Source: an uncultured Pelagibacteraceae bacterium | GTDB taxonomy: Bacteria > Pseudomonadota > Alphaproteobacteria > Pelagibacterales > Pelagibacteraceae | Reading direction: 5' to 3' | NCBI GenBank assembly: GCA_902529105.1 | Contig: CABZUW010000001.1 | Location: 62,001-126,000 of the forward strand | DNA: 64,000 nt | Shown here: one piece after another, positions 1 to 13,170 of the stretch | Layout of the letters: each line of letters begins with the position of its first letter | How positions within the stretch are numbered: position 1 is the first letter of the stretch | Made by a program: the position numbers and the translations under genes | Notes under the pieces: generated by a model | The model's input: the letters and a program-made list of their open reading frames with translations, nothing else | The model's database searches: none | Told to the model about the DNA's origin: nothing

Positions 1-737
1 AATTGTACATCTTTAGGAAAATCTTTAGGTAGCGTTCTAGAAAATATTATTCCAATATCAGATCCTGACTCCTTCATATCTTCTTGCAACTTACCTATCC
101 ATTTATTACTCCAGGCCTTAGTTTTTTTTCTTTCATAAAGAATTTTGCTAATTACTGATCCTTGTTCAATAACTTCTTGTATCCAATCTCCACCTGACTC
201 GCCTTTTTCATATTCTTGAATTTTATCATTCTTATCTTTGAATATTTTTTTTAAATATTCCCCTAGTGAAATTTCTGCACCAGATCCTTGATCTACAGTA
301 GTTCCTTGATTTGCAGTTTGACTTAAGGTCTGTATTTGTTTTTTTAATCTAGTCTTATCTAAATCCCATTGATTTTTTTCCTCATTATGTTTATTAAGTT
401 GATCTTCTCGATCTTTTTTGATCGCATTTTCTATTAGTGCTTCGTAGTGCTCTTTATTCGAAGCTCTGTCAGCTTCAATAGCTTTTTTAATCTCAGCTTT
501 TTTATCTGCATCAATTTTTTTATTTTTTTCTTCAAGTTCTTGGATTTTGTCGAGATTAGCTTTATTTTTTTTTTCTTCTTCATCTCTTATTGTTTGTTTA
601 AATTTTTCAAGATTATCTTTATTTTTTTGTCTTTCTTCGTCTCCAATTTTTTTTTTATGTTTTTCAAGATTTTGCTTAATAGCATCCTCCATTGGAAACT
701 CTGCTTTACATACTGGACACGTTACTTTTTCAATCAT
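1..737 (-). CDS. DUF2130-family protein, C-terminus cut off by window edge
   Basis: The frame reads from an ATG at 737 to the window edge without a stop (245 codons visible). Residues 7-10 are CPVC, a zinc-ribbon-like start. Residues about 20-135 are a long Lys/Glu-rich coiled coil. The last visible 60 residues hold GDWIQEV and ILYERKKTKAWSNKW, the core I associate with DUF2130. The YExK element there looks like the second half of a PD-(D/E)XK nuclease site, which is inference. The family usually runs to about 400 residues, so the C-terminus lies outside. It starts 25 bp after the stop of the PD-(D/E)XK gene and so is probably the last visible gene of the 2498-to-1 operon. The function is unproven. 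Confidence 0.8.
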   Translation of the reverse strand, partial: MIEKVTCPVCKAEFPMEDAIKQNLEKHKKKIGDEERQKNKDNLEKFKQTIRDEEEKKNKANLDKIQELEEKNKKIDADKKAEIKKAIEADRASNKEHYEALIENAIKKDREDQLNKHNEEKNQWDLDKTRLKKQIQTLSQTANQGTTVDQGSGAEISLGEYLKKIFKDKNDKIQEYEKGESGGDWIQEVIEQGSVISKILYERKKTKAWSNKWIGKLQEDMKESGSDIGIIFSRTLPKDFPKDVQ

Positions 738-762: not shown

Positions 763-1638
763 TCAATTTATTTTCATTTTTTTCATTTTTTTTATAAGCT
801 CTTCAAATTCTTTTGAATAAAGCTCTAAAGAATTTTTTGCATTTATTCTCATTTCTAATATTTCTACTAAAGAAGGTAGAACTTTATTAATCAGTTCAAT
901 GATTTTAATATTTTCCTTAATATCCCCCTTTTTCAAAATAAGTTTTTCATTATACCATCGACAATTATCACAATCACTACCTGAATTTGGCATTTTTTCA
1001 GATTCTAAGCAATTTTTTAAACCAACTAAAGTATCTTCAATATAATCTGTTTTTAATTTGTAAGGTAATAGTGTTGTTTTAAAATTGACTGTTTTGTTAA
1101 ATGTTTTTTGACTTTCGTCTTGAGCATTACAAATCAACCAATAACCAGTATCATGAACTTTAAAGTCATTTATCTTTAAAAGATAAGCATAAAAATCAAG
1201 CTGTCTTAAATAAGATTTATGATAATGTTTATCTGATGAAGTAAAGTCTACTAATTTTTTATTAGACGTAGCTTTATAATCTAAAACAACTATTTCATCG
1301 GTATCTTTGTTTAACCACAAATCGTCTAAAGCACCAAATATTTCTATACCTGTTTTTTTTGATTTGGCTCTAACACCACTTCTATTAAATCTATATTTTT
1401 TTAAAGTTTCTGGATCAAGACCATTATAAGGAACAAAGTTTAAATTATAATCTTTGAATATTGGATGAGGTTCACCTTTTGCTCGTAATTCATCAAATTC
1501 TTCTTTTAATAAGGCGTCTACTCTAGAATTAATTGGATGACCTGGAGTTCCTGGAGGTTTGATTTGATGTTTTTCTAAAAGATAAAAACACAAAGGACAT
1601 TTTATAAAATTATCCCACTTAGTTCTACTTATTTCCAT
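763..1638 (-). CDS. PD-(D/E)XK nuclease-family protein with paired cysteines
   Basis: This 291-aa protein has the core of the RecB/Cas4-like PD-(D/E)XK nucleases: FGALDD (D105/D106), VVLDYKA (D120, K122) and QLDFY (Q146, Y150). Four cysteines, C14 and C17 near the start and C223 and C226 (CDNC) after the core, bracket the nuclease fold. This resembles the Fe-S-binding cysteines of Cas4 and AddB, but in a 2+2 rather than a 1+3 layout. The C-terminus (240-291) is a Lys/Glu helix. Its start overlaps the end of the upstream 108-aa gene by 14 bp, so translation is probably coupled. Nuclease activity and the cluster are inferred from motifs; no cas genes or CRISPR repeats are seen in the window. 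Confidence 0.8.
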   Translation of the reverse strand: MEISRTKWDNFIKCPLCFYLLEKHQIKPPGTPGHPINSRVDALLKEEFDELRAKGEPHPIFKDYNLNFVPYNGLDPETLKKYRFNRSGVRAKSKKTGIEIFGALDDLWLNKDTDEIVVLDYKATSNKKLVDFTSSDKHYHKSYLRQLDFYAYLLKINDFKVHDTGYWLICNAQDESQKTFNKTVNFKTTLLPYKLKTDYIEDTLVGLKNCLESEKMPNSGSDCDNCRWYNEKLILKKGDIKENIKIIELINKVLPSLVEILEMRINAKNSLELYSKEFEELIKKMKKMKIN

Positions 1639-1951
1639 AAGTTCTCCAATTTTTATTCTCTTTTAATTTTTTTGATAAAACTACTTCTTTTAACTTTTCT
1701 GATAAAACTAACATCTCTATCTCATTTTTTTTATACTCATGTCTTATCCTCAAGTACCTAGCTAATCTCAATAGATTATATGGTAAAAAATATATGTTTA
1801 AAACAAGTTTTAATACAGGCCTTGTTTTATAAAATTCTTTATTAGCTTGTTTTCTAATTTCCCTGCTAGCTAAATACATGTCAATATCATGTTTCCAGCT
1901 TTTACAGTAAGTTAGACGATCCTTAAGTTTATTTTTAAAATAGTTATTCAT
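1625..1951 (-). CDS. Small basic protein of unknown function (108 aa)
   Basis: I do not recognise the family. The frame is open from 1981, but the ATG at 1951 is the better start: it overlaps the stop of the upstream 53-aa gene in an ATGA arrangement. The protein is rich in Lys and Arg. It has one hydrophobic stretch (residues about 45-65, around LKLVLNIYFLPYNLL) that could be a membrane-associated or buried helix, followed by a charged helix. Position between a 53-aa orphan and a PD-(D/E)XK nuclease, with overlaps on both sides, says it belongs to the same functional unit. Confidence 0.6.
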   Translation of the reverse strand: MNNYFKNKLKDRLTYCKSWKHDIDMYLASREIRKQANKEFYKTRPVLKLVLNIYFLPYNLLRLARYLRIRHEYKKNEIEMLVLSEKLKEVVLSKKLKENKNWRTYGNK

Positions 1952-2109
1952 TTTACGTACCTCGCAATTTGTCTGTAACATTGTGGTTTTACTGAGGATT
2001 TACCTATGATTTTTACTTCTTCATTTTTTAAATAGTAAATCCAATAATAATGTTGATCGTTTTCTAAATCAAAAGTTTCTTCGATTCTAATTTCTGTGAT
2101 TTTATCCAT
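1948..2109 (-). CDS. 53-aa orphan, paralogue of the 58-aa protein at 13524-13700
   Basis: The reading frame runs from ATG 2109 to TGA 1948-1950. Its start overlaps the upstream stop (TGATG) and its stop overlaps the next start (ATGA), so it is embedded in an operon by translational coupling on both sides. The sequence begins MDKITEIRIEETFD, then has an aromatic run (HYYWIYYL), then KIIGKSSVKP and a terminal ARYV. The same order (ISEIRVEE, HFYRIYF, KIMGESKIKP, ARYV) occurs in the 58-aa ORF that opens the other defence operon 11.4 kb away. It looks like a small beta-rich domain. I know no family name or function. Confidence 0.7.
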   Translation of the reverse strand: MDKITEIRIEETFDLENDQHYYWIYYLKNEEVKIIGKSSVKPQCYRQIARYVK

Positions 2110-2498
2110 CAATTTAAACACCTTTCATCTTGAAGTTGCTCATATTTAAACTTTGATACTACAAGTCTTAAATCGTCCACTATTTTAGACCATTTATCAT
2201 TGACATTTTCAGTTGAGTTTAACCAAGGTAAATCTTCTTCTGAAAGACCTAATAAATTAATTATTTTGTTATCAATATCTCTCAAAATTTCTTGTCTCTT
2301 GTGAGGGCTATATTCAGAAAATAAACTCACAATTATTTGATTTGCATCTTTATAAGATGGGGTTTTTTGATTGACCAAAGTTCTAACTACTTGAGCTTTT
2401 GATAAGGTATATCCTGGAGTTAAAGTTGTTGATAGGTCGATTATTTTTCTATAGCAATTAATATCAATTGCTATTGATTTATACTTTTTCTTGTTCAT
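2109..2498 (-). CDS. Possible ribbon-helix-helix-like protein (129 aa), first gene of the left operon
   Basis: The N-terminal 45 residues (KSIAIDINCYRKI, then LSKAQVVRTLVN) have the pattern of a short beta strand followed by two helices, as in ribbon-helix-helix regulators. This is a weak, by-eye call. The rest is helical and charged, with LGLSEEDLPWL near residue 85. The start at 2498 has a good Shine-Dalgarno (AAGGA, 2506-2511), which is itself complementary to an upstream repeat. The stop is fused to the next start. It could be the regulator of its own operon, since it sits first behind a structured leader, or a toxin-antitoxin-like component. Confidence 0.55.
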   Translation of the reverse strand: MNKKKYKSIAIDINCYRKIIDLSTTLTPGYTLSKAQVVRTLVNQKTPSYKDANQIIVSLFSEYSPHKRQEILRDIDNKIINLLGLSEEDLPWLNSTENVNDKWSKIVDDLRLVVSKFKYEQLQDERCLN

Positions 2499-2505
2499 TA
2501 TCTAT

Positions 2506-2719
2506 TCCTTTCTGAACCAAAGAAATAGGTTAAGGAAATGATTTTATAAGACCTACATTCCAATAACGAACCCTTTGGTTCATATATTAGTTTATTTTTT
2601 AGAAAGGATTATTTTATAACTCTGTACTCTGCTTCGTTTCCAAGCAACAACCGTAAATGGAAGGCCAATATACACTAATGTAGGTCTTTAAAAAATAGTT
2701 GTATATAGGGCTTCCATTT
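2506..2719 (-). promoter_or_regulatory. Structured leader with interlocked inverted repeats
   Basis: Four perfect inverted repeats lie directly upstream of the gene starting at 2498: 2506-2513 with 2601-2608 (8 bp), 2514-2522 with 2573-2581 (9 bp), 2548-2559 with 2677-2688 (12 bp) and 2655-2663 with 2711-2719 (9 bp). The first two nest into one long stem that contains the Shine-Dalgarno of the operon's first gene. The third crosses both the second and the fourth, giving a pseudoknot-like chain. The simplest reading is a 5' leader that can hide the ribosome-binding site. A DNA-level operator array or a small RNA are alternatives. I see no ORF or tRNA cloverleaf in this 296-bp gap (2499-2794). 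Confidence 0.5.
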
Positions 2720-2794
2720 CAGCTAGTTATCTTAAATAACCTTTCGAGAATTTTTATAAACTATAATATTTATTTTACAATAAAAAAATAAAGT

Positions 2795-2968
2795 TTATTT
2801 TTTATTGTTTATTTTAAATCCATTGGCTTCTAATAGTTTAATTAGGTTCTTTTTTAATTCTTCCCTAGAAGAATTTTGATCTCCAATTTTATAAAAAAAT
2901 AGAGGTTTTAAACCTTTTTCTTTTTTAGATTTAAAATAGTTTTTTATTGATTGTATTTTTATTTTCAC
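2795..2968 (-). CDS. Small GTG-start ORF (57 aa), unknown
   Basis: A GTG at 2968 is preceded by a strong AGGAG Shine-Dalgarno at proper spacing and opens 57 codons to TAA at 2795-2797. The product is basic (KIKIQSIKNYFKSKK at the N-terminus, then FFYKIGDQNSSREELKKNL). I recognise no family. The stop lies inside an A/T-only palindrome (2777-2808), which may serve as a weak terminator. It follows the exported 146-aa gene by 60 bp, so the two may be cotranscribed. The Shine-Dalgarno is the main support; conservation is unknown. Confidence 0.45.
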   Translation of the reverse strand: MKIKIQSIKNYFKSKKEKGLKPLFFYKIGDQNSSREELKKNLIKLLEANGFKINNKK

Positions 2969-3028
2969 ATGTCTCCTTTAGCGTTGTTTTTAAAGTCCCA
3001 GCAAGTAGAGTTTATTTCTAAATCAGGA

Positions 3029-4625: not shown

Positions 4626-5606
4626 ATGAAACTTAAAATTATTGATTTATTTGCTGGTATTGGTGGAGTCAGGCTTGGTTTTGAAAAAGCTGCTAAGAAA
4701 AAACTTATTGAGACAAATTGTGTTTTTTCTAGCGAAATTGATAAATATTGTATTCAAACCTATATAACAAACTTCGGAAAAACAAATTTTTATGGAGATA
4801 TCACAAAAATTGGTTCTACAGAAAATATAATAAAAACAATACCAAACTTTGATTTACTTTTTGCAGGATTCCCTTGTCAACCATTTTCGCAAGCTGGATT
4901 AAAAAAAGGATTTAATGATACAAGAGGAACATTGTTTTTTTGGATAGAAAAAATATTGAATGTAAAAAAACCCAGTGCATTTTTACTTGAAAATGTAAAA
5001 CACTTAAAAGGACATGATAAAGGAAATACTCTAAAAGTTATTCTAAAATCTTTGAGAAAGAATTATTATGTTCCAGATCCTGAAATTTTAAATGCAAAAG
5101 ACTTTGGTTTGCCTCAAAATAGAGAAAGAATTTACATAGTAGGTTTTAGAAAAAAAATAAATGATTTTAAATTTCCAAATTTAAAAAAGATAAAAACTAA
5201 GCTAGGCGATATATTAGAAACAAATCCGGTTAAAAAGTATACAATTTCTTCGAGACTTTGGTCAGGTCATAAAAGAAGAAAGATTAAACATCGAAAAAAA
5301 GGTAATGGATTTGGATATGGTCTTTTTGACAAAAATAGTCAGCATACAAACACTATTTCAGCTAGATATTATAAAGATGGAAGTGAGGTTTTAATATCAA
5401 GAGGTAAAAACAAAAATCCAAGAAAACTCACTGAAAGAGAGTGTGCAAGACTTCAAGGCTTTCCAGATTCATTTAAAATTCCTGTAAGCACAGTACAAGC
5501 ATATAAACAGTTTGGGAATAGTGTTCCTGTTAATGTTGTTGAAGCAATAAGCTGTGAAATGATAAACTATTTAGAGGCACAAAACAAAAAATCAAAGGTT
5601 GCTTAA
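4626..5606 (+). CDS. DNA (cytosine-5) methyltransferase
   Basis: The enzyme transfers methyl from SAM to C5 of cytosine in a specific DNA site. All core motifs are present in order: I (DLFAGIGG, 7-14), IV with the catalytic cysteine (FPCQPFSQ, C84), VI (LLENV, 120-124), VIII (QNRERIY, 164-170), IX (RECARLQGFP) and X (QFGNSV, 295-300), with a target-recognition domain around 205-265. The frame is open from 4467, but the ATG at 4626 directly precedes motif I and gives the normal 326-aa length. Upstream codons would overlap the divergent gene. It converges on the AIPR gene. It may protect against the adjacent endonuclease, or be the methylase arm of the Mza-like operon, or both. Confidence 0.95.
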   Translation: MKLKIIDLFAGIGGVRLGFEKAAKKKLIETNCVFSSEIDKYCIQTYITNFGKTNFYGDITKIGSTENIIKTIPNFDLLFAGFPCQPFSQAGLKKGFNDTRGTLFFWIEKILNVKKPSAFLLENVKHLKGHDKGNTLKVILKSLRKNYYVPDPEILNAKDFGLPQNRERIYIVGFRKKINDFKFPNLKKIKTKLGDILETNPVKKYTISSRLWSGHKRRKIKHRKKGNGFGYGLFDKNSQHTNTISARYYKDGSEVLISRGKNKNPRKLTERECARLQGFPDSFKIPVSTVQAYKQFGNSVPVNVVEAISCEMINYLEAQNKKSKVA

Positions 5607-5664
5607 CTATTTAAGCATATTTTTAAATATAAAGAGTTTAATTATTAATAATAAAGAAAATTAA

Positions 5665-7707
5665 TTAGATAATTTCTGCTTCCTCAGCTTTATCAATAAT
5701 TTTAAGAGCACTTTTTGCCTGTTTAGGAGACGGTTGTCTTTTCCAATTATTTAACGATTGCATCCAAAGACTTGTTGCTATTTGCAGTTGAATATAGTGA
5801 AAATCATCAGACTCACTTGCCCAAGCAATCATTTTTTCCCAATCCTTAGTGCTTAGACTTTTGCATTTTTTTATATTGTCCATATCTTCTGGAGAAAATA
5901 TTTCTTTTGCAACTTTTACAGGTTTGCCAGCTACTTTTTTAAGATTTGTAAACTCTGGTGGTGTGACAGTAAAAGTAAAATTTCTATCAGTAAGCTCTTC
6001 CCAGCATTCTTCTTTTTTACACCATTCTGAAACATTTCTTCCTTCTGCTGTTTTTTGAATAATTTCGTAAATTTTTGTGCTCCATTTATTAATCAAATCC
6101 TCAAATTGGTGAGAAATACTTTGATCAGCCCAAATTAAATCAAAATTTATTTTTCTACTAGTGTGATAGGATATTAAAGAAACAGTATAATTTAAAACTT
6201 GTGATCTATACCCAGCTATTTCTTGATTATCTCTAATAATTTTAGCAGTTCTATTAAATAAAATTGATATTGAGCAATATTTTTGAAAAAATTCATCATC
6301 TATTTTTTCATGAAATTTCTTATCATTCAGTAAATTCATAAAGGTCACAAAACTTTTTTGAGCACCAGTACAAGCAACATGAGGGTCTAAGTAATGCCAA
6401 CAATTAATGAATTTTGCCAAATCTTCTTTAGTAAATTTCATATTCGATGGTGAGATTTCTAAAAATTTTGACTTTTTATTTTTACCTAAATCTTTTTGCT
6501 TCATTTTTTGAACTTGATATTCCCCTCTCATACGTTCATAAAACCATTGTTGACCTTCAGAAGTTCTTATCTTTTGTGATAATTTTTTAATAGTTATATG
6601 GAATTGATGATTTGATGAAAAATCTGCTTTTTTAACAATGTTTTGAGTATTTGCGTATTCTGAAATTTTTGGCACAACATCATCTAAATATTCCTTTTTG
6701 ACTAAAGTAATTTTTGCTGGAACAACCACTTTTGAAAAATTTGCTCCATCTTGTTTTTTTGTTCGATAAAGAGTTGCTGCAGTTTGCCCCCCATTAACAA
6801 TTTGAAAACCAGTTGCTGATTTTATAAAATTTCCATCCTTATCATTTCCTAATTCAATATCATCTACAACTACAACGATACCATTATTGTAAGAAAAAAA
6901 ACGATCAGGTTCTTCAATTAATGTTTGCCTGATACCTTTATTTATTTTGGTACCAAGTTGAAGAAAAGATCTAACATTTAAACTTAATAATCTTTGTCCA
7001 AAAATTCTATAAATATTAAATAAGACATCTCCAGGAATAAAAGCCATGTAGCTGCTAATCTTATCCGAAGATTTATGAGCTAACATACATCTAACTTTTT
7101 CTCTAAATTTTGTAAAATCAACTCTAATATTTGTAGAATTAGCACCACCAAGACTTGAACTAAATATTCTTTTATTATCAAATAAAAAGTTTTGAAATTC
7201 AATTTTTGCTTCTCTTTGCATTAAAGGGGTTTTTTCGCACTCACAGTTTGTTAAAACAATAATTCTAACAGTTGATATGTCTTTTTGATTTTTAAATATG
7301 GTTTTTGAAATATCGTAGGCATCTTCTTTTTTATTAATTTTTTCATATAATTTTTTTGTAGATTGAAAATAAAAATTTTTAGCAGTTTCAATTAATTCTT
7401 GTACTTTATTTAATTTGATTTCTTGTATTTTTTCAGATGGGTCATAATGAGTAATAAATAAATCAAGTCTTAAATCTTCTTCACTAAAAGAGTATCCATT
7501 AATTTTAATCTTAGATTTTGAAATTTCTCTTTCAAAAAAAACTAATTCGTAGTCAGAGATTGTTCCATTATCGTAGAGTATATCTGTATAAATTTTGGTT
7601 AAAACTTCTTGAGGTTGATCATTACTATCTTCAATTTCGTTTTTAACTCTTAAAAAAAATTCTTTTAAGTAAGCATTTTTTAATGTTTGCTTAAATTCAG
7701 ACTTCAT
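5665..7707 (-). CDS. AIPR-family phage-resistance protein
   Basis: This 680-aa protein carries the signature of AIPR (abortive infection phage resistance) proteins: LNVRSFL (243-249), FFSYNNGI (270-277) and FQIVNGGQTA (301-310), followed by a long helical C-terminus. AIPR proteins occur in Z1/DUF4420 antiviral operons and are thought to be an effector or sensor; the activity is not settled. The start overlaps the DUF4420 stop by 4 bp (ATGA), so it is translationally coupled as the last gene of the 13700-5665 operon. No truncation is evident. Confidence 0.9.
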   Translation of the reverse strand: MKSEFKQTLKNAYLKEFFLRVKNEIEDSNDQPQEVLTKIYTDILYDNGTISDYELVFFEREISKSKIKINGYSFSEEDLRLDLFITHYDPSEKIQEIKLNKVQELIETAKNFYFQSTKKLYEKINKKEDAYDISKTIFKNQKDISTVRIIVLTNCECEKTPLMQREAKIEFQNFLFDNKRIFSSSLGGANSTNIRVDFTKFREKVRCMLAHKSSDKISSYMAFIPGDVLFNIYRIFGQRLLSLNVRSFLQLGTKINKGIRQTLIEEPDRFFSYNNGIVVVVDDIELGNDKDGNFIKSATGFQIVNGGQTAATLYRTKKQDGANFSKVVVPAKITLVKKEYLDDVVPKISEYANTQNIVKKADFSSNHQFHITIKKLSQKIRTSEGQQWFYERMRGEYQVQKMKQKDLGKNKKSKFLEISPSNMKFTKEDLAKFINCWHYLDPHVACTGAQKSFVTFMNLLNDKKFHEKIDDEFFQKYCSISILFNRTAKIIRDNQEIAGYRSQVLNYTVSLISYHTSRKINFDLIWADQSISHQFEDLINKWSTKIYEIIQKTAEGRNVSEWCKKEECWEELTDRNFTFTVTPPEFTNLKKVAGKPVKVAKEIFSPEDMDNIKKCKSLSTKDWEKMIAWASESDDFHYIQLQIATSLWMQSLNNWKRQPSPKQAKSALKIIDKAEEAEII

Positions 7708-8699
7708 AAGTTAGAAATTAATTCCTCCTCATTAATTCTGAAATCCTCACATTTTTCAAGATTAATTTTATAAGTTAAAGACAAATCAAATATAGGCTCT
7801 GGTTCTTTTATGTCCTTTATATGAGGAAAGGTTTTAGAGATAAAATAGAAATTACAATCCTTAAGCACATATTTATCTTTATAAAAATCTTTGTGAAAAT
7901 CGTAATAACCATAATGTCTTAATTTAATATAAAAATCATTTATTAAGACATTTGATTTTTTTTCAAATTTTTTTGTGATTTCATCTATTAACATTTTTAA
8001 TGTTTTACCTAAAGGATCATTTTCAATCTGAACAAAAGATAAATAAAGTGGTTTTTCAAATATTGGTGAAATTTGATCATTACTTGAAGTGTGAATAATT
8101 TTTTTACCATCATTTTTTGTTGTTTTTGTTTCTAATAATATATTTTCTGTCGTAAAATCATGTTTTTGAGATGGACCAGTCCAGTAATTTAAAGTCTCTT
8201 CATCTGAATATTTTTTATTTATATATTCACTCAATATTATGAGTTCTCCAAAAAGACCTGTTTCCTTTTCAACAGATAGATGTTTTGGTAAAGCATCACT
8301 ATCAAAAAAATTTTTTGCTGATAAAAGGTTCTTAAAAAAAAAATCAACACTTTTTTCTTGATTAATTTTTTCTTGATTAATTTTCGTTAATATTAAATTA
8401 ACAATATCTCTAAAAAAATCATTATATTCATTATTTTTTAAGGACATAAGAATAGTTTTATCAAGAACTTCTATATTCCACCCTTTGCAAATAGGAATAT
8501 TATTTTTATCAATTTTTTTCATATCATTAATGGTTATCAACAAACCTGATAAACCTTTTATGTCTAATGTAAAAAAAAACTCTTCAGAAATTTGTATTTT
8601 TGCTTTTCCTGCTTTTTGAAAATCTTCGTCATCTTGAATCCGTTGTTCAAGTTGTTTCCATTGATTGTCTAGAAATTTTTGATATTGAACAAAGTCCAT
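7704..8699 (-). CDS. PD-(D/E)XK-motif protein, DUF4420 type
   Basis: This 331-aa protein has the two blocks typical of DUF4420: ETGLFGEL (146-153), then W173, G175 and HDF (180-182) with LLETK (E190, K192). D181 with E190xK192 forms a PD-(D/E)XK site, so it is a predicted nuclease of the defence operon. Residues 111-117 repeat KINQE, a short local duplication. It lies 15 bp after the Z1 gene and overlaps the AIPR gene by 4 bp. Family and neighbours are mutually supportive; cleavage activity is inferred. Confidence 0.88.
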   Translation of the reverse strand: MDFVQYQKFLDNQWKQLEQRIQDDEDFQKAGKAKIQISEEFFFTLDIKGLSGLLITINDMKKIDKNNIPICKGWNIEVLDKTILMSLKNNEYNDFFRDIVNLILTKINQEKINQEKSVDFFFKNLLSAKNFFDSDALPKHLSVEKETGLFGELIILSEYINKKYSDEETLNYWTGPSQKHDFTTENILLETKTTKNDGKKIIHTSSNDQISPIFEKPLYLSFVQIENDPLGKTLKMLIDEITKKFEKKSNVLINDFYIKLRHYGYYDFHKDFYKDKYVLKDCNFYFISKTFPHIKDIKEPEPIFDLSLTYKINLEKCEDFRINEEELISNL

Positions 8700-8714
8700 T
8701 ATTTAATCTTTTAT

Positions 8715-11700
8715 TTAAGCTGCGTCTTCTTCTTTTTCTATATCTAAAAAATCTTTTAAATTCTGTTTTCTATGTTCTAAAGCGACTCTATTTAATGCAA
8801 CATTATAAACCAACTCATCATTATCACCTTCCTCCTTAGTCGGAGGTATAATAATCTCCCAACCTAAATGTAAATCTTCAGCTATACGTAATTGTGAATC
8901 CTTGTCCGTCATAATGTTTGCTCCATCAGGTTTGATTAACCAAGGTGTTAAAATAATAAGTCCTTCTTTTCTTTTTTGTCTAATTTTACTTTTAAAACCA
9001 TATGGTAATTTGTTATCTTTTTTTTCTTCAGTCTTTCCAGTTTTTTTGTACATGTTAATCCAGTTTTCTAGCCCTTCATCAAAAGTAGCTTTATCTAAGT
9101 CCATAAATTCTGCGCTAGGATCTGACTGTACTCCAATTGAAAATTCATTTTTTTGAAGATATGTTTTCTTACTAGATCTGCTTAAGCCACGTTCAACAAG
9201 ATTTATATCAATTTTGTTTTTCTTACCGATAGTAAAATCAAGTTTATTTTTTTTCGCAACAGACCAAATTGCCAAATTCCATTTTACTCTAGGCCTATGA
9301 TCTTTCAGTTGTCTTATTCTAAATGCGATGTCATGTGGATGACTGTCCGTGAAAGCACGTCTTGGCATTTTATATTTTAACAAAAACTTTACGATTTCAT
9401 CCGGACTCACATCTTTCCATAAGTGACCTTTAGAAATGCTTTTTCTAAAATCTTTTGGAATTCCTTCAAGAATTTGTTCTTTTTCTAAATTATTATCAAT
9501 TTTTTCTTTTAATTTATTAGGCAACCAAAAATTTGCATCTTTAAATCTTTTATTAATTTCTTTTTCAGTTTCGCTAGGCTTTCCCAATTTATCAATTAAA
9601 TTATGAAATAAATTTAAATTGCTTTCTCTGAATTCTTTATTTTTATGAAATACTATGTTTTGATGGTGTCTTGAAGTATATGAATAAAGTGGCTCAGGTA
9701 ACTCTACGAGATCTTTTGATTTTGAAGATGCAATTAAATTCCATCCATCAAAGGTCGGTATTTCCATTGAAAACTCGATAGGAGTTTTAGGAGGTTCAGA
9801 GGTTTGCATTTCTCTGAACTTTTCTCTTGCAAATTCCATTGCATAAGTAAATTGTCTAAATAAAATGTGTAATATCTTCGGTACATAAATTCTATATAAA
9901 TCCTCATAACCATGTCGATAACCAAACCAACGTCCCATTTGAGTTAATGTGTCTGACACAGGTGTTTTAGCTATTCTTAAAAAATAACTAACACTCAAAC
10001 CCTCTAAAGTAATTCCTCTTGATATAGCAGCTCCACCAATTACAATAACATTCCACCCTTTCTTTTTGCTTTCATAATCTAAAATGTCAGTTGAATTACT
10101 GTTAATTTGAATTACGTCAAATTTTTCTTCATCGGTAATTTCTTTTGTTAAATTTTTCCATATTTCCTCGAAATTAAGCTCTTTTGATCCTTTATTTTTT
10201 GTATTATCCAGATTTTTTGATATGTCTTCATTCCATATCTTAAAAAATTTATTTTTTAAGGTTTCTAGCTTTTTTTTATCAATTTCATTTGAGATAAGAT
10301 TGTTAAGATTTTTTATATAATCTTTTATTTGTTTAATAACTGTTTTTTGAACACTAACAAATCTTGAAACATGTATTAGCATTGAATTATGCTGTATTTC
10401 ATCACTTCTTAAAGATTTGATTCCAATATTAATCAAGAATGTAATAATTGCATCTTCAAGACTTGGAGGAATTCTATCTTCGTCTTTAAATAAACATGGA
10501 TGATGTTGTTTATGATATAAAGGAACCCATCCCTTAGGCTCATCATATCCTCGTTTACCTTCATTTCTGTAAACTTCATCTCTTTTTTCTTCATCTATCT
10601 CACCAGTTTCAGAATTTATGAATTCATCAAAATCATCTCGATAATCATATATCCAATTTATTTGAGGGTATTCACTTTGATCTATATCCTCAGATAAACT
10701 TACAATTTCATTATCATCATCAAAGTTTCGTTCTGCTTTTCCAAAAATTTTTCTGGGACTCTGATAACTATCATACCTTTTTAAAAGTTTTACAAAATCT
10801 CTAGGAAATAAATCTCGTCCCTCTTGTTTTTTAATTGATGTATAATCAATAAAAATATTTGCTAAAGGAGTAGCAGTATATCCTATATAAGCATTTCTCT
10901 TAAAGCATGCCATAATCCTTCTTATAAGTAAATTTGTTTTGGATGGATCAGCCAATCTAAAGGCTTCTAATTCATCAGTGTCGTCAATATTTGATAAAGC
11001 TGTTTTACGTTTACTAATATCTATTGATGCACTATCACACTCATCATCAATTATTAGTAAAGGTAAATCACATTCAATTTTATTTTTAGGCAAATTATCA
11101 GAAACATATTCGTTAAAACCATTCCAAGTCCATGGCTCTTTTGGATCATATTTAATACCAGGCTGACTATTAAGCCATACTAAAATATTTGAAAGTACAG
11201 GTACATTTTTTTTAATCACAAATATCGCAGGATCTAAATTTGGAAGTAGTGCAACTGTTTTTGCTGTTTTTGCGTTAAAATCACCATTAATTTCCATTGT
11301 TTTTATTCCATTTTGATATTTGTACTTTGGTTTTTGTGTCATAAAATTTACAGCATATACATCCTCACCTTTTCTTGGATCAGATGTTGAGATTAAATTA
11401 TCCATCAATCTAGTTTGTGTTTGAGCTCTAAGACTGTTGTAAATCCCACTCATAACAATTATCATTTTGTATCCACAATCTATTGCTTTGGCGATTAAAG
11501 CATTATAATTTGAAGTCTTTCCAGATTGAACGTCTCCTACTACCATTCCTTTTGTTTCCCAATTTCCTGGCCTAGATGGTTTTTCTAAATCCTCCAATAT
11601 TTCATTTGTGGAAATATCAATATCATTAGAAACTATTTTTCCTAATTTGTTCTCAAGATTTTTTCTATAATAAGCATATTGTGAGCTAGTATAAATTTTA

Positions 11701-11993
11701 TTTTCCCATAATTTTTTTGTATCATCATTAAACCATGGTTCATGATTTCTATCTTTTACATTTGCTCTCAAAGTCATGTCATTTTCCATGGTTGTGGCAT
11801 AATTTTTTTGAATAAAAACAATAATTTCTGATCCTACTTTTTTTGCTTCAGGATAAGTTTTGAATAAGTCTTCTAAGAATTCATCAATATCTTGTTTATT
11901 TTTAGGATACCATGATTTATTTTTTTTCTTTTTAATTCCAAAATAATCTATATGACCATTTATTACAGGTATAAAAGCATCTAATTCACTCAT
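8715..11993 (-). CDS. Z1-domain superfamily-2 helicase-like protein
   Basis: This 1092-aa protein has a Walker A (GDVQSGKT, 153-160), a Walker B/DExx block (LLIIDDECDSASI, from 312), motif III (YTATP) and a C-terminal helicase half with GGAAISRGITLEGL and QMGRWFGYR (motif VI arginine fingers). The region around and after these blocks is the Z1 domain known from antiviral operons with MutL-like ATPase, DUF4420 and AIPR. The gene is full length for the family. It overlaps the GHKL gene by 8 bp. Likely role: the ATP-driven DNA-translocating or remodelling core of the system; this is inference. Confidence 0.93.
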   Translation of the reverse strand: MSELDAFIPVINGHIDYFGIKKKKNKSWYPKNKQDIDEFLEDLFKTYPEAKKVGSEIIVFIQKNYATTMENDMTLRANVKDRNHEPWFNDDTKKLWENKIYTSSQYAYYRKNLENKLGKIVSNDIDISTNEILEDLEKPSRPGNWETKGMVVGDVQSGKTSNYNALIAKAIDCGYKMIIVMSGIYNSLRAQTQTRLMDNLISTSDPRKGEDVYAVNFMTQKPKYKYQNGIKTMEINGDFNAKTAKTVALLPNLDPAIFVIKKNVPVLSNILVWLNSQPGIKYDPKEPWTWNGFNEYVSDNLPKNKIECDLPLLIIDDECDSASIDISKRKTALSNIDDTDELEAFRLADPSKTNLLIRRIMACFKRNAYIGYTATPLANIFIDYTSIKKQEGRDLFPRDFVKLLKRYDSYQSPRKIFGKAERNFDDDNEIVSLSEDIDQSEYPQINWIYDYRDDFDEFINSETGEIDEEKRDEVYRNEGKRGYDEPKGWVPLYHKQHHPCLFKDEDRIPPSLEDAIITFLINIGIKSLRSDEIQHNSMLIHVSRFVSVQKTVIKQIKDYIKNLNNLISNEIDKKKLETLKNKFFKIWNEDISKNLDNTKNKGSKELNFEEIWKNLTKEITDEEKFDVIQINSNSTDILDYESKKKGWNVIVIGGAAISRGITLEGLSVSYFLRIAKTPVSDTLTQMGRWFGYRHGYEDLYRIYVPKILHILFRQFTYAMEFAREKFREMQTSEPPKTPIEFSMEIPTFDGWNLIASSKSKDLVELPEPLYSYTSRHHQNIVFHKNKEFRESNLNLFHNLIDKLGKPSETEKEINKRFKDANFWLPNKLKEKIDNNLEKEQILEGIPKDFRKSISKGHLWKDVSPDEIVKFLLKYKMPRRAFTDSHPHDIAFRIRQLKDHRPRVKWNLAIWSVAKKNKLDFTIGKKNKIDINLVERGLSRSSKKTYLQKNEFSIGVQSDPSAEFMDLDKATFDEGLENWINMYKKTGKTEEKKDNKLPYGFKSKIRQKRKEGLIILTPWLIKPDGANIMTDKDSQLRIAEDLHLGWEIIIPPTKEEGDNDELVYNVALNRVALEHRKQNLKDFLDIEKEEDAA

Positions 11994-13170
11994 TTAATTC
12001 CTTAATTGATTTTTCAATCTTAACTAATTCATCATCATTAAGAACTGAATTTCTAAGCATTCTAATTAATTCATTTTTCTTTTTCAATGTTTCATTAATC
12101 GGTTCTTTATTTTCACCATTCATTAAATTCACTTTTTCCAAATAATCTTTTCTAATTTGTATCAAACTTTTACGTATTTTATTTCTTGCATAATCTGGGA
12201 TGTTTACTTGGTTTTTAGAATCTGTGATCCAATCTCGACTAGTTTCAATAGGAATTTCAATTTCAATTCTTAGTCTATTAAATCTCTCACTTATTCCCCA
12301 AAATTTATCAGAATTTTTTTCACCCAATCCAAACCAACCTCCATAATCAATAACTCTATTTTTTCTTAAAAAATAAAGACCTTGTAAATCATTTCTAGTT
12401 TTTCCTAAATTTTCATTCGTTACATCAATAGGTATTATATAGGGATTTATTTTAGTAGTTCCTCCTTTTAAGAAACTAATTTCTGTTCCAGGTATTTTTA
12501 TTGTATCAGGATTTTCTTTATAAAATGGATCAAATTTTTTGGTTTTATGTATCTCCTCGGTTCCGTTAAAAAATAAGTTAATCTTATTATCTAATAAATA
12601 CTTATGGTAAATTAACTTAAAATGTTTTTTTGTTTTATCACAATCCTCGTAAAAATTAGGACCCCTTTCTATTGCTCGAAATCTTGTAATTCTATCTAAA
12701 TCTGACCAAAGAATGATGGTTCCACTTTTTTTTGATTGTAGCTGGTCTAAATGTTTTTTTACAAATTTATGATCTATACAGCTTGGCATGTTATCAGTTA
12801 CACCATCTTTAAAATTTAAAGTTTTCTTCAACAATTTATCTTTTTTAGTAATTACCGTTATTGAAGAACAATGATTGAATGATCCTGCTTTTAAACCTAA
12901 TCCAAATACAGAGTGATCATTTTCACCTTTGTCTATATGTTCATCTTGGGGTAGATTTAACGCTTTATTTAAAAGCTCTTTTTCATTCATTCCATCACCA
13001 TCATCTATAACCATAATAAAAGAATTTTTGCCTGAATCATCACTCCAATACATATATGTCCAAATATTTTTTGCATTATGAGTAATGCTGTTATCAGTTA
13101 ACTCAGCTATTGAATGTTCTAATGAATATCCTCTAGATCTAAATTTTTTAAATATATAACCAAGATTCAT
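11986..13170 (-). CDS. GHKL (MutL/HSP90-type) ATPase of the Z1 defence operon
   Basis: The N-terminal domain has the Bergerat ATP fold: motif N (HSIAELTDNS, E23 and N27), G1 (DDGDGM, 56-61) and G2 (GLGLKAG, 90-96). The remainder (100-394) contains a transducer-like segment with SGTIILWSDLDRI and ends in a charged coiled coil. At 394 aa it lacks a histidine-kinase or type II topoisomerase layout. In Z1 operons this ATPase is the MutL-like subunit. It follows the TerB-like gene by 3 bp and overlaps the Z1 gene by 8 bp, so it is part of one transcript. Confidence 0.9.
   Translation of the reverse strand: MNLGYIFKKFRSRGYSLEHSIAELTDNSITHNAKNIWTYMYWSDDSGKNSFIMVIDDGDGMNEKELLNKALNLPQDEHIDKGENDHSVFGLGLKAGSFNHCSSITVITKKDKLLKKTLNFKDGVTDNMPSCIDHKFVKKHLDQLQSKKSGTIILWSDLDRITRFRAIERGPNFYEDCDKTKKHFKLIYHKYLLDNKINLFFNGTEEIHKTKKFDPFYKENPDTIKIPGTEISFLKGGTTKINPYIIPIDVTNENLGKTRNDLQGLYFLRKNRVIDYGGWFGLGEKNSDKFWGISERFNRLRIEIEIPIETSRDWITDSKNQVNIPDYARNKIRKSLIQIRKDYLEKVNLMNGENKEPINETLKKKNELIRMLRNSVLNDDELVKIEKSIKELNE

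Follow-up and report, generated by a model that had tools for sequence, protein, structure and literature searches.

In IncI-type repZ leaders, the loop of a 5' hairpin pairs with a distant segment near a structured initiation region, and the pseudoknot formed in this way activates translation. SAR11 bacteria are among the most numerous cells in the ocean, and their tiny genomes are thought to be sparsely regulated, often through RNA. RNA pseudoknots in the repZ/repA leaders of IncI-alpha, IncB and IncL/M plasmids are cited in PMC10724649, and the portions of Meyer et al., 2009 (PMC2704228) and Weinberg et al., 2010 (PMC2864571) at hand describe SAR11 and marine RNAs, some of which are pseudoknotted 5' leaders (SAM-V, rpsB). 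Table 1 of PMC2704228 gives the 445-bp intergenic region before the 'exonuclease' gene SAR11_1165 of HTCC1062 as motif-free; this region could hold a leader related to the one described here.

We analysed a stretch of 64,000 nucleotides (the window), located on contig C1 of a draft genome of 1.12 Mb in 35 contigs. It contains a minus-strand 5' region of about 250 nt with several inverted repeats, ahead of a small-protein/nuclease operon of Pelagibacterales (SAR11). We consider it probable that these repeats are the helices of a conserved, cis-acting leader RNA, made from the minus strand, which controls translation initiation of the first gene.

Inverted repeats and the operon behind them

A scan of positions 2506-2719 for perfect inverted repeats of at least 8 bp returned pairs of 12 bp (2548-2559/2677-2688), 10 bp (2513-2522/2573-2582), 9 bp (2655-2663/2711-2719) and 8 bp (2506-2513/2601-2608), and a fifth, AT-only pair of 9 bp (2593-2601/2689-2697) that the initial annotation had left unnamed. 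The four repeats that it had placed in these 214 bp are all present at those positions. Of its lengths, 8, 12 and one of the two of 9 bp agree with the scan, and the other 9-bp repeat (2513-2522/2573-2582) measures 10 bp. As it also described, one arm contains the Shine-Dalgarno sequence of the gene at 2498 (2506-2513 is the complement of AGAAAGGA), and the 12-bp pair crosses the neighbouring repeats in a pseudoknot-like order. The repeats are beyond chance: when the 214 bp were dinucleotide-shuffled 2000 times, 10 of the shuffled sequences contained a perfect pair of 12 bp or longer, and none contained disjoint pairs that equalled 12, 9, 9 and 8 bp. Among 597 half-overlapping 214-bp segments of the 64 kb, a 12-bp pair is present in six and the full set in none.

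The predicted fold of the minus strand between 2485 and 2760 has a z-score of -4.74 (equally stable shuffles, 0/200), and the plus-strand fold is less clear (z -2.96; 2/200). The 9-bp pair extends into a longer, imperfect hairpin (2655-2674/2700-2719), and in the centroid of the minus-strand fold a further helix (2602-2614/2734-2745) extends beyond 2506-2719. The leader parts and the operon genes are as follows.

2753-2780, minus strand: candidate sigma-70 promoter (-35 TTGTAA at 2775-2780, 16-nt spacer, -10 TATAAA at 2753-2758)
2734-2745, minus strand: P1 5' strand, GAAAGG-UUAUUU, pairing with 2602-2614 with one bulge (centroid)
2700-2719, minus strand: 5' arm of the P2 hairpin, conserved pairing with 2655-2674
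2677-2688, minus strand: P2 loop segment AAGACCUACAUU, first half of the pseudoknot, 12-bp complement of 2548-2559
2655-2674, minus strand: 3' arm of the P2 hairpin, conserved pairing with 2700-2719
2601-2614, minus strand: P1 3' strand (2602-2614), including the anti-Shine-Dalgarno at 2601-2608 (UCCUUUCU), 8-bp perfect complement of 2506-2513
2573-2582, minus strand: P6 5' strand UGAACCAAAG, of a helix found unprompted by RNAalifold
2568-2581, minus strand: local hairpin P4, GAACC/GGUUC, alternative to P6; 90.8% of cells paired in 24 leaders
2548-2559, minus strand: pseudoknot target AAUGUAGGUCUU, whose start is 64 nt upstream of the last base of the start codon
2519-2528, minus strand: P5 5' strand CUAUUUCUUU, putative local Shine-Dalgarno blocker, complementary to 2502-2511 as read from the sequence; a helix-finding script recovered 9 bp of the helix
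2513-2522, minus strand: P6 3' strand CUUUGGUUCA, 10-bp repeat with 2573-2582
2506-2513, minus strand: Shine-Dalgarno AGAAAGGA, complementary to 2601-2608; the minus-strand gene starts at 2498
2109-2498, minus strand: first gene, 129 aa, with a putatively RHH-like N-terminal and an 'LPW' C-terminal part, which elsewhere are separate first genes
1948-2121, minus strand: second gene, 57 aa, of a 53-57 aa family (MDKITEIRIEE...) with 32 loci in genome contigs
1625-1981, minus strand: third gene, 118 aa, of the '105-aa' family, present in 59 of 399 genus genomes
763-1638, minus strand: Cas4-like PD-(D/E)XK nuclease in the effector place of the cassette (PDDEXK_1, E 2.7e-8)
3-737, minus strand: DUF2130 gene (E 3.8e-21), continuing outside the window

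Cas4 profiles match the nuclease at 763-1638 weakly, and in one profile search they fall below the cut-off. Ten proteins chosen from the effector place each matched one of RmuC, DUF2130, DUF2779, PDDEXK_1, or RNase_H_2 plus an AAA helicase. The 32 named records of the 53-57 aa family comprise 31 with Pelagibacter-type titles and one titled Proteobacteria; the 105-aa family occurs in 24 of 247 genomes and 3 of 10 genera of the order. A viral origin of the cassette was rejected: relatives of the 53-aa and 105-aa families are absent from IMG/VR, and phage records returned neither the window's 105-aa-family protein nor a match to the leader DNA.

First genes among the cassettes are RHH-like, LPW-type, or fused (the window, L049/L064; L numbers denote loci), and the two separate types match non-overlapping parts of the window's first protein. 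The model of this protein computed from 32 alignment rows is helical, with a mean pLDDT of 74.0 and a pTM of 0.47; the model from the single sequence has a pLDDT of 45.3. Its N-terminal part is modelled as an extended stretch, to which no strand is assigned, followed by helices 13-26 and 34-43. An Arc-like repressor profile matches 2 of 32 first-protein members weakly (best 0.015), and together with the modelled helix order this weakly suggests an RHH-like N-terminal part. The model has no fold match in the PDB (best Foldseek E 5.3; best Z 3.1 among 22 chains re-examined), and profile searches of PDB and Pfam with the protein gave nothing meaningful and no support for RHH.

Directly upstream of the leader is a separate 57-aa gene (MKIKIQSIKNYF..., 2795-2968, minus strand), which recurs before related leaders, for example at L012, L016, L017, L076, L077 and L122; at L081 the region preceding the leader is repeated in tandem. 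The cassette adjoins an MZA-like defence operon, assigned by profiles (MzaE 5665-7707, MzaD 7704-8699, MzaC 8715-11993, MzaB 11986-13170), with a cytosine methyltransferase (4626-5606) beside it, so that this neighbourhood spans 4626-13170. Distant 105-aa relatives (L087-L111) keep varied nuclease-type company, presumably RmuC-like, WGR-like and ATPase-like neighbours. At L070, L072 and L073, 105-aa-like and 53-aa genes occur without an intergenic leader before the 53-aa gene; we take the flanking genes to be exonuclease-like (before) and thioredoxin-like (after).

Conservation of the P2 hairpin and the pseudoknot

Used as a DNA query, the window's leader matched 7 of 200 genomes, including its own, and the other six matches are short (23-38 bases); leader homologues were gathered via the proteins rather than by DNA search. 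Clustering the upstream regions of L011-L082 and the window gave 34 clusters, with L013, L020 and L045 lacking an anchor. The 20 clusters with P2 were carried on. The other 14 (L011, L012, L016, L018, L034, L039, L047, L048, L063, L066, L070, L072, L073 and L082) were left out and not assigned to the architecture; the anchor of L012, L018 and L082 is not a proper leader start. For 29 loci outside the clustering (L083-L111), the gene content was read and some upstream stretches were viewed.

The architecture common to 20 of the 34 clusters consists of the long hairpin P2 and a pairing of its loop, across 100 nt or more, with a segment ahead of the start codon. This one architecture precedes differing effectors (PD-(D/E)XK, RmuC, DUF2779) and differing first proteins. 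Swap tests covered 14 of the 20 families (18 in one variant). Measured back from the last base of the start codon, the pseudoknot target begins at 56-65 nt in 10 of 14 families and at 75 and 91 nt in two; in L014 and L033 it lies at 13 and 12 nt and is the Shine-Dalgarno sequence itself. Loops paired with their own targets scored a mean of 22.9, versus 16.6 for swapped ones (0/20000 permutations), and in fixed windows before the ATG the result was 0/20000 both for 12 and for 10 families. Taken singly, the own target ranked first in just 6 of 14 families, because related loops cross-match. Against shuffles, the pseudoknots of L033 (matched by 79/300) and L038 (37/300) do not stand out.

A structure-blind MAFFT alignment (A4) contains 27 of 28 distinct P2 leaders, L021 being omitted as near-identical to L014. 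In it, 82.7% of cells are paired, versus 75.5% in shuffled alignments (0/500) and 34.6-49.3% in slid ones, and 38 of 78 pairs show two-sided changes (0/500 shuffles); the number of pair types is unexceptional (85/500). By helix, two-sided changes affect 16 of 18 pairs in P2, 6 of 12 plus the single outer pair in the pseudoknot, 3 of 12 in P1 and 5 of 17 in P5. The fraction of paired cells is 72.8% for P1, 90.0 and 97.6% for P2, 69.8-80.0% for P3, 97.2% for P4, 82.8% for P5, 76.9% for the pseudoknot and 48.0% for its single outer pair. One P2 pair (columns 66/112) appears as GC in 13 leaders, CG in 7, UA in 3 and AU in 2, and G-U pairs are frequent in the leader helices. The initial annotation had named an RNA leader as one of two alternatives, and covariation across homologues as one way to examine it; in the homologous leaders the arms are conserved as pairs with compensatory changes, P2 foremost, which supports this alternative.

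Unprompted, RNAalifold returned 22 pairs, corresponding to P2 and P6, 16 of them with compensatory changes; the last pair of the P6 helix (GAACn/n'GUUC) is GC in 10 cases, CG in 7 and UA in 6. Within the window's subfamily the pseudoknot reads GACUUGCA/UGCAAGUC in L036 versus GACCUACA/UGUAGGUC in the window, which amounts to two compensatory pairs. The swap test for P1 in 14 families gave 7/20000, but the best-scoring helix coincided with P1 in no more than 9 of the 14, and in the window another pairing was chosen.

A further set of previously unused cassettes with a recognised first gene and enough upstream sequence comprised L122, L133, L134, L136, L137 and L142. P2 and the pseudoknot were found at the expected place in five of the six; L133 is without P2 and belongs to the P2-less class of L016. 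L134 and L136 are only partly independent tests, being closely related to L033 and L056. The L142 pseudoknot has U-A where the window has A-U, and one P6 pair is broken there. L135, L138, L139 and L140 have no testable leader in reach; L135 is from the same genome as L142, and L136 from the same genome as L141.

We also built a covariance model (R1) of the 3' part of the leader from 24 leaders and accepted matches with E up to 0.01. It matched 21 of 399 genus genomes, 20 times before the cassette: 19 matches precede a 105-aa cassette gene and share its contig and strand, and one (G387), at the end of a contig, precedes an RHH gene. The remaining match (G042) was rejected as false, lying between two unrelated genes that we take to be metK-like and nusA-like. 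Only G387 and G422 are real matches on which the model was not trained, directly or as an identical copy. The count is a lower bound, because the filters are strict and the L014/L033 sub-class falls outside the model. In the order, R1 matched 5 of 247 genomes, all of the same genus.

Among leaders that lack P2, those of L011, L013, L034 and L084-L086 share a motif like ACUUGUUUAGA (ACUAGUUUAGA in L013), which occurs twice in L084-L086. The leaders of L039, L048, L063, L066 and L104 contain short hairpins with UCUCCUUUCU in their loops. These loops presumably resemble the 3' end of 16S rRNA, and the hairpins are perhaps another way of masking a Shine-Dalgarno sequence.

Predicted masking of the Shine-Dalgarno sequence and competing explanations

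In an alignment of 24 leaders (A6; L014, L021, L033 and L038 left out), the Shine-Dalgarno sequence sits in two mutually exclusive helices. In the state with the anti-Shine-Dalgarno and P6, 88.9% of cells are paired (slid controls, at most 57.6%), and in the state with P5 and P4, 88.8% (at most 60.2%); the helix between anti-Shine-Dalgarno and Shine-Dalgarno has 84.5% and P5 88.2%. Two-sided-change cells and the covariation score lie above all 500 shuffles in both structures. The pairs with two-sided changes number two per structure, a value reached by 308 of 500 shuffles for the anti-Shine-Dalgarno with P6 and by 499 of 500 for P5. The swap tests of the two blockers were not significant (P5, 1082/20000; anti-Shine-Dalgarno, 1046/20000). 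P6 gave 7/20000, but its test partly scored other pairings, with the own pairing strictly first in 4 of 14. Judged from sequence, it is mainly conservation that argues for the helices blocking the Shine-Dalgarno.

Predicted energies of the two states are nearly equal for the window (-62.6 versus -64.9 kcal/mol), the pseudoknot being excluded from the energies. There is no agreement elsewhere: L035 favours P1 and P5 by about 10 kcal/mol and L037 the anti-Shine-Dalgarno and P6 by about 7. The predicted accessibility of the window gene's Shine-Dalgarno is third-lowest of 61 genes when computed from -240 to +30, and sixth of 61 from -60 to +30; by this prediction it is little accessible, and not uniquely so.

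The distance from the end of a sigma-70-like -10 element to P2 is 22-33 nt in 13 of 14 families and 44 nt in L019 (the best match in 90 nt, without a shuffled control), and L035 and L014 have a TTGAAA-17-TATAAT promoter match. The window's candidate is weak and absent from the list of a stricter scan; it predicts a transcript start near 2746. Given where these promoters lie relative to P2, transcription is expected to start close to the P1 5' strand. IncI-type repZ leaders also have an antisense RNA, made from the strand opposite the hairpin. In the SAR11 leaders, a consensus promoter scan gave best scores of 7.5-9.0 antisense and 8.5-11.0 sense; the two strands tied in 2 of 14 families, and in 12 the antisense score was the lower one, often by little. 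A terminator scan found no intrinsic terminator in the leader; therefore, translation is favoured as the controlled step, and translation initiation is likely what is regulated.

We propose the following mechanism for the leader. Transcription is predicted to start just before P2. Comparison shows that the P2 loop engages in a 7-13 bp pseudoknot, its partner being either a segment ahead of the start codon or, for one sub-class, the Shine-Dalgarno sequence. The long-range helix of the anti-Shine-Dalgarno (2601-2608) and P6 is predicted to bury the Shine-Dalgarno and to enclose the pseudoknot target, so that two hairpins would kiss; alternatively, the local hairpin P5 would bury the Shine-Dalgarno while P1 holds the anti-Shine-Dalgarno. 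In the window, the loop-loop pairing would tie P2 to the hairpin that blocks the Shine-Dalgarno, and either hold the Shine-Dalgarno shut or help to open it. The default state would be poorly translated, and from the masked Shine-Dalgarno we infer that the operon stays silent until a signal arrives. A trans-acting factor or a state of the cell (a ligand, protein, RNA, or the loading of ribosome or S1) may shift the balance, upon which the operon would be made. We speculate further, and with considerable reservation, that this is an RNA switch gating exchangeable SAR11 nuclease cassettes: it would keep them untranslated as long as the cell is healthy, and the kissing pseudoknot would serve as its sensor of infection or DNA stress.

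The pseudoknot could act in the opposite direction and activate translation in the manner of IncI-type repZ or of a tisB standby site, with capture of the P2 loop shutting expression off. The layout, a hairpin loop pairing upstream of a structured initiation region, is shared, and in tisB the pseudoknot is needed for 30S and S1 binding while the ribosome-binding site is sequestered, as far as the excerpted text of PMC7708055 goes. The loops of L014, L033 and L134, however, pair with the Shine-Dalgarno itself and should block rather than activate, which favours a shutting role; we regard activation as possible, yet doubtful. It is unlikely that the leader is a riboswitch for a metabolite or ion, with P1, P2, P3 and the pseudoknot as aptamer and the P1 3' strand and anti-Shine-Dalgarno as expression platform. 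The P1 3' strand is indeed complementary to the Shine-Dalgarno in the window, L035 and L037, and the A-rich tract between P1 and P4 is conserved (A24, A26, A29 and A30 are invariant, L035 numbering). Against this, the sequence intervening between P2 and P1 differs strongly among families, pairing in the P3 helices is incomplete (the 69.8-80.0% of cells given above), and the downstream genes point to no metabolite.

The initial annotation had offered, as its other alternative, binding sites for the operon's own first protein, that is, a DNA operator bound by an RHH-like repressor. The predicted helix order of the N-terminal part would suit RHH, and the weak Arc-like matches agree with it, although Pfam and PDB lend RHH no support. 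The same leader class precedes first proteins that are RHH-like (L015, L026, L029) and LPW-type ones without an RHH-like part (L019, L035, L061), which disfavours such sites. Moreover, the arms vary strongly although the RHH-like part is conserved, and those of the pseudoknot are separated by 100 nt or more. Widely varying arms that keep their pairing, with frequent G-U pairs, point to RNA, and we judge an operator very unlikely. The strong minus-strand structure, a candidate promoter of its own and the constant proximity of nuclease genes might suggest a stand-alone or trans-acting RNA, such as one that partners the nuclease, whose place ahead of the operon is incidental. Such an RNA is highly improbable: the conserved fold includes the Shine-Dalgarno and start region, the architecture stays while effector families change, and the terminator scan was negative. 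A cis-acting leader that controls translation of the first gene remains our preferred reading.

Relation to known RNA leaders

Rfam 15 has no match at the gathering cut-off in the whole window and only a tRNA in 15 related loci; a permissive search of 2380-3000 gave two chance-level matches, both outside the leader. Searches of the literature, at the level of titles and abstract openings, did not turn up the leader by name, which does not prove it unpublished. It differs from the motifs of PMC2704228 and PMC2864571 in that none of those set out in the passages of the two papers at hand stands before this cassette, and those represented in Rfam have no match.

Placed before swappable nuclease cassettes, the leader offers a concrete RNA control point for genes that resemble genome defence, and its families supply naturally occurring compensatory variants with which kissing-loop control of ribosome access can be studied.

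Like the IncI-type repZ leader, the SAR11 leader has a hairpin loop whose complement lies close to the initiation region, as the comparisons above found. Unlike repZ, it stands in genomic contigs, the five operon proteins include no Rep family by Pfam and NCBIfam, and no common leader peptide was noticed by eye in the SAR11 leader sequences. With the tisB toxin mRNA, as presented in the accessible part of PMC7708055, it shares a structured 5' leader, a pseudoknot and a sequestered ribosome-binding site, the last being predicted for SAR11; in contrast to tisB, the first product is a protein of 129 aa, modelled as mostly helical, and the bacteria are different. Type I toxin-antitoxin mRNAs typically encode a short hydrophobic toxin as their first product. 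The SAR11 leader apparently represents an undescribed family of cis-regulatory RNA, akin to the pseudoknotted translational leaders of repZ and tisB.
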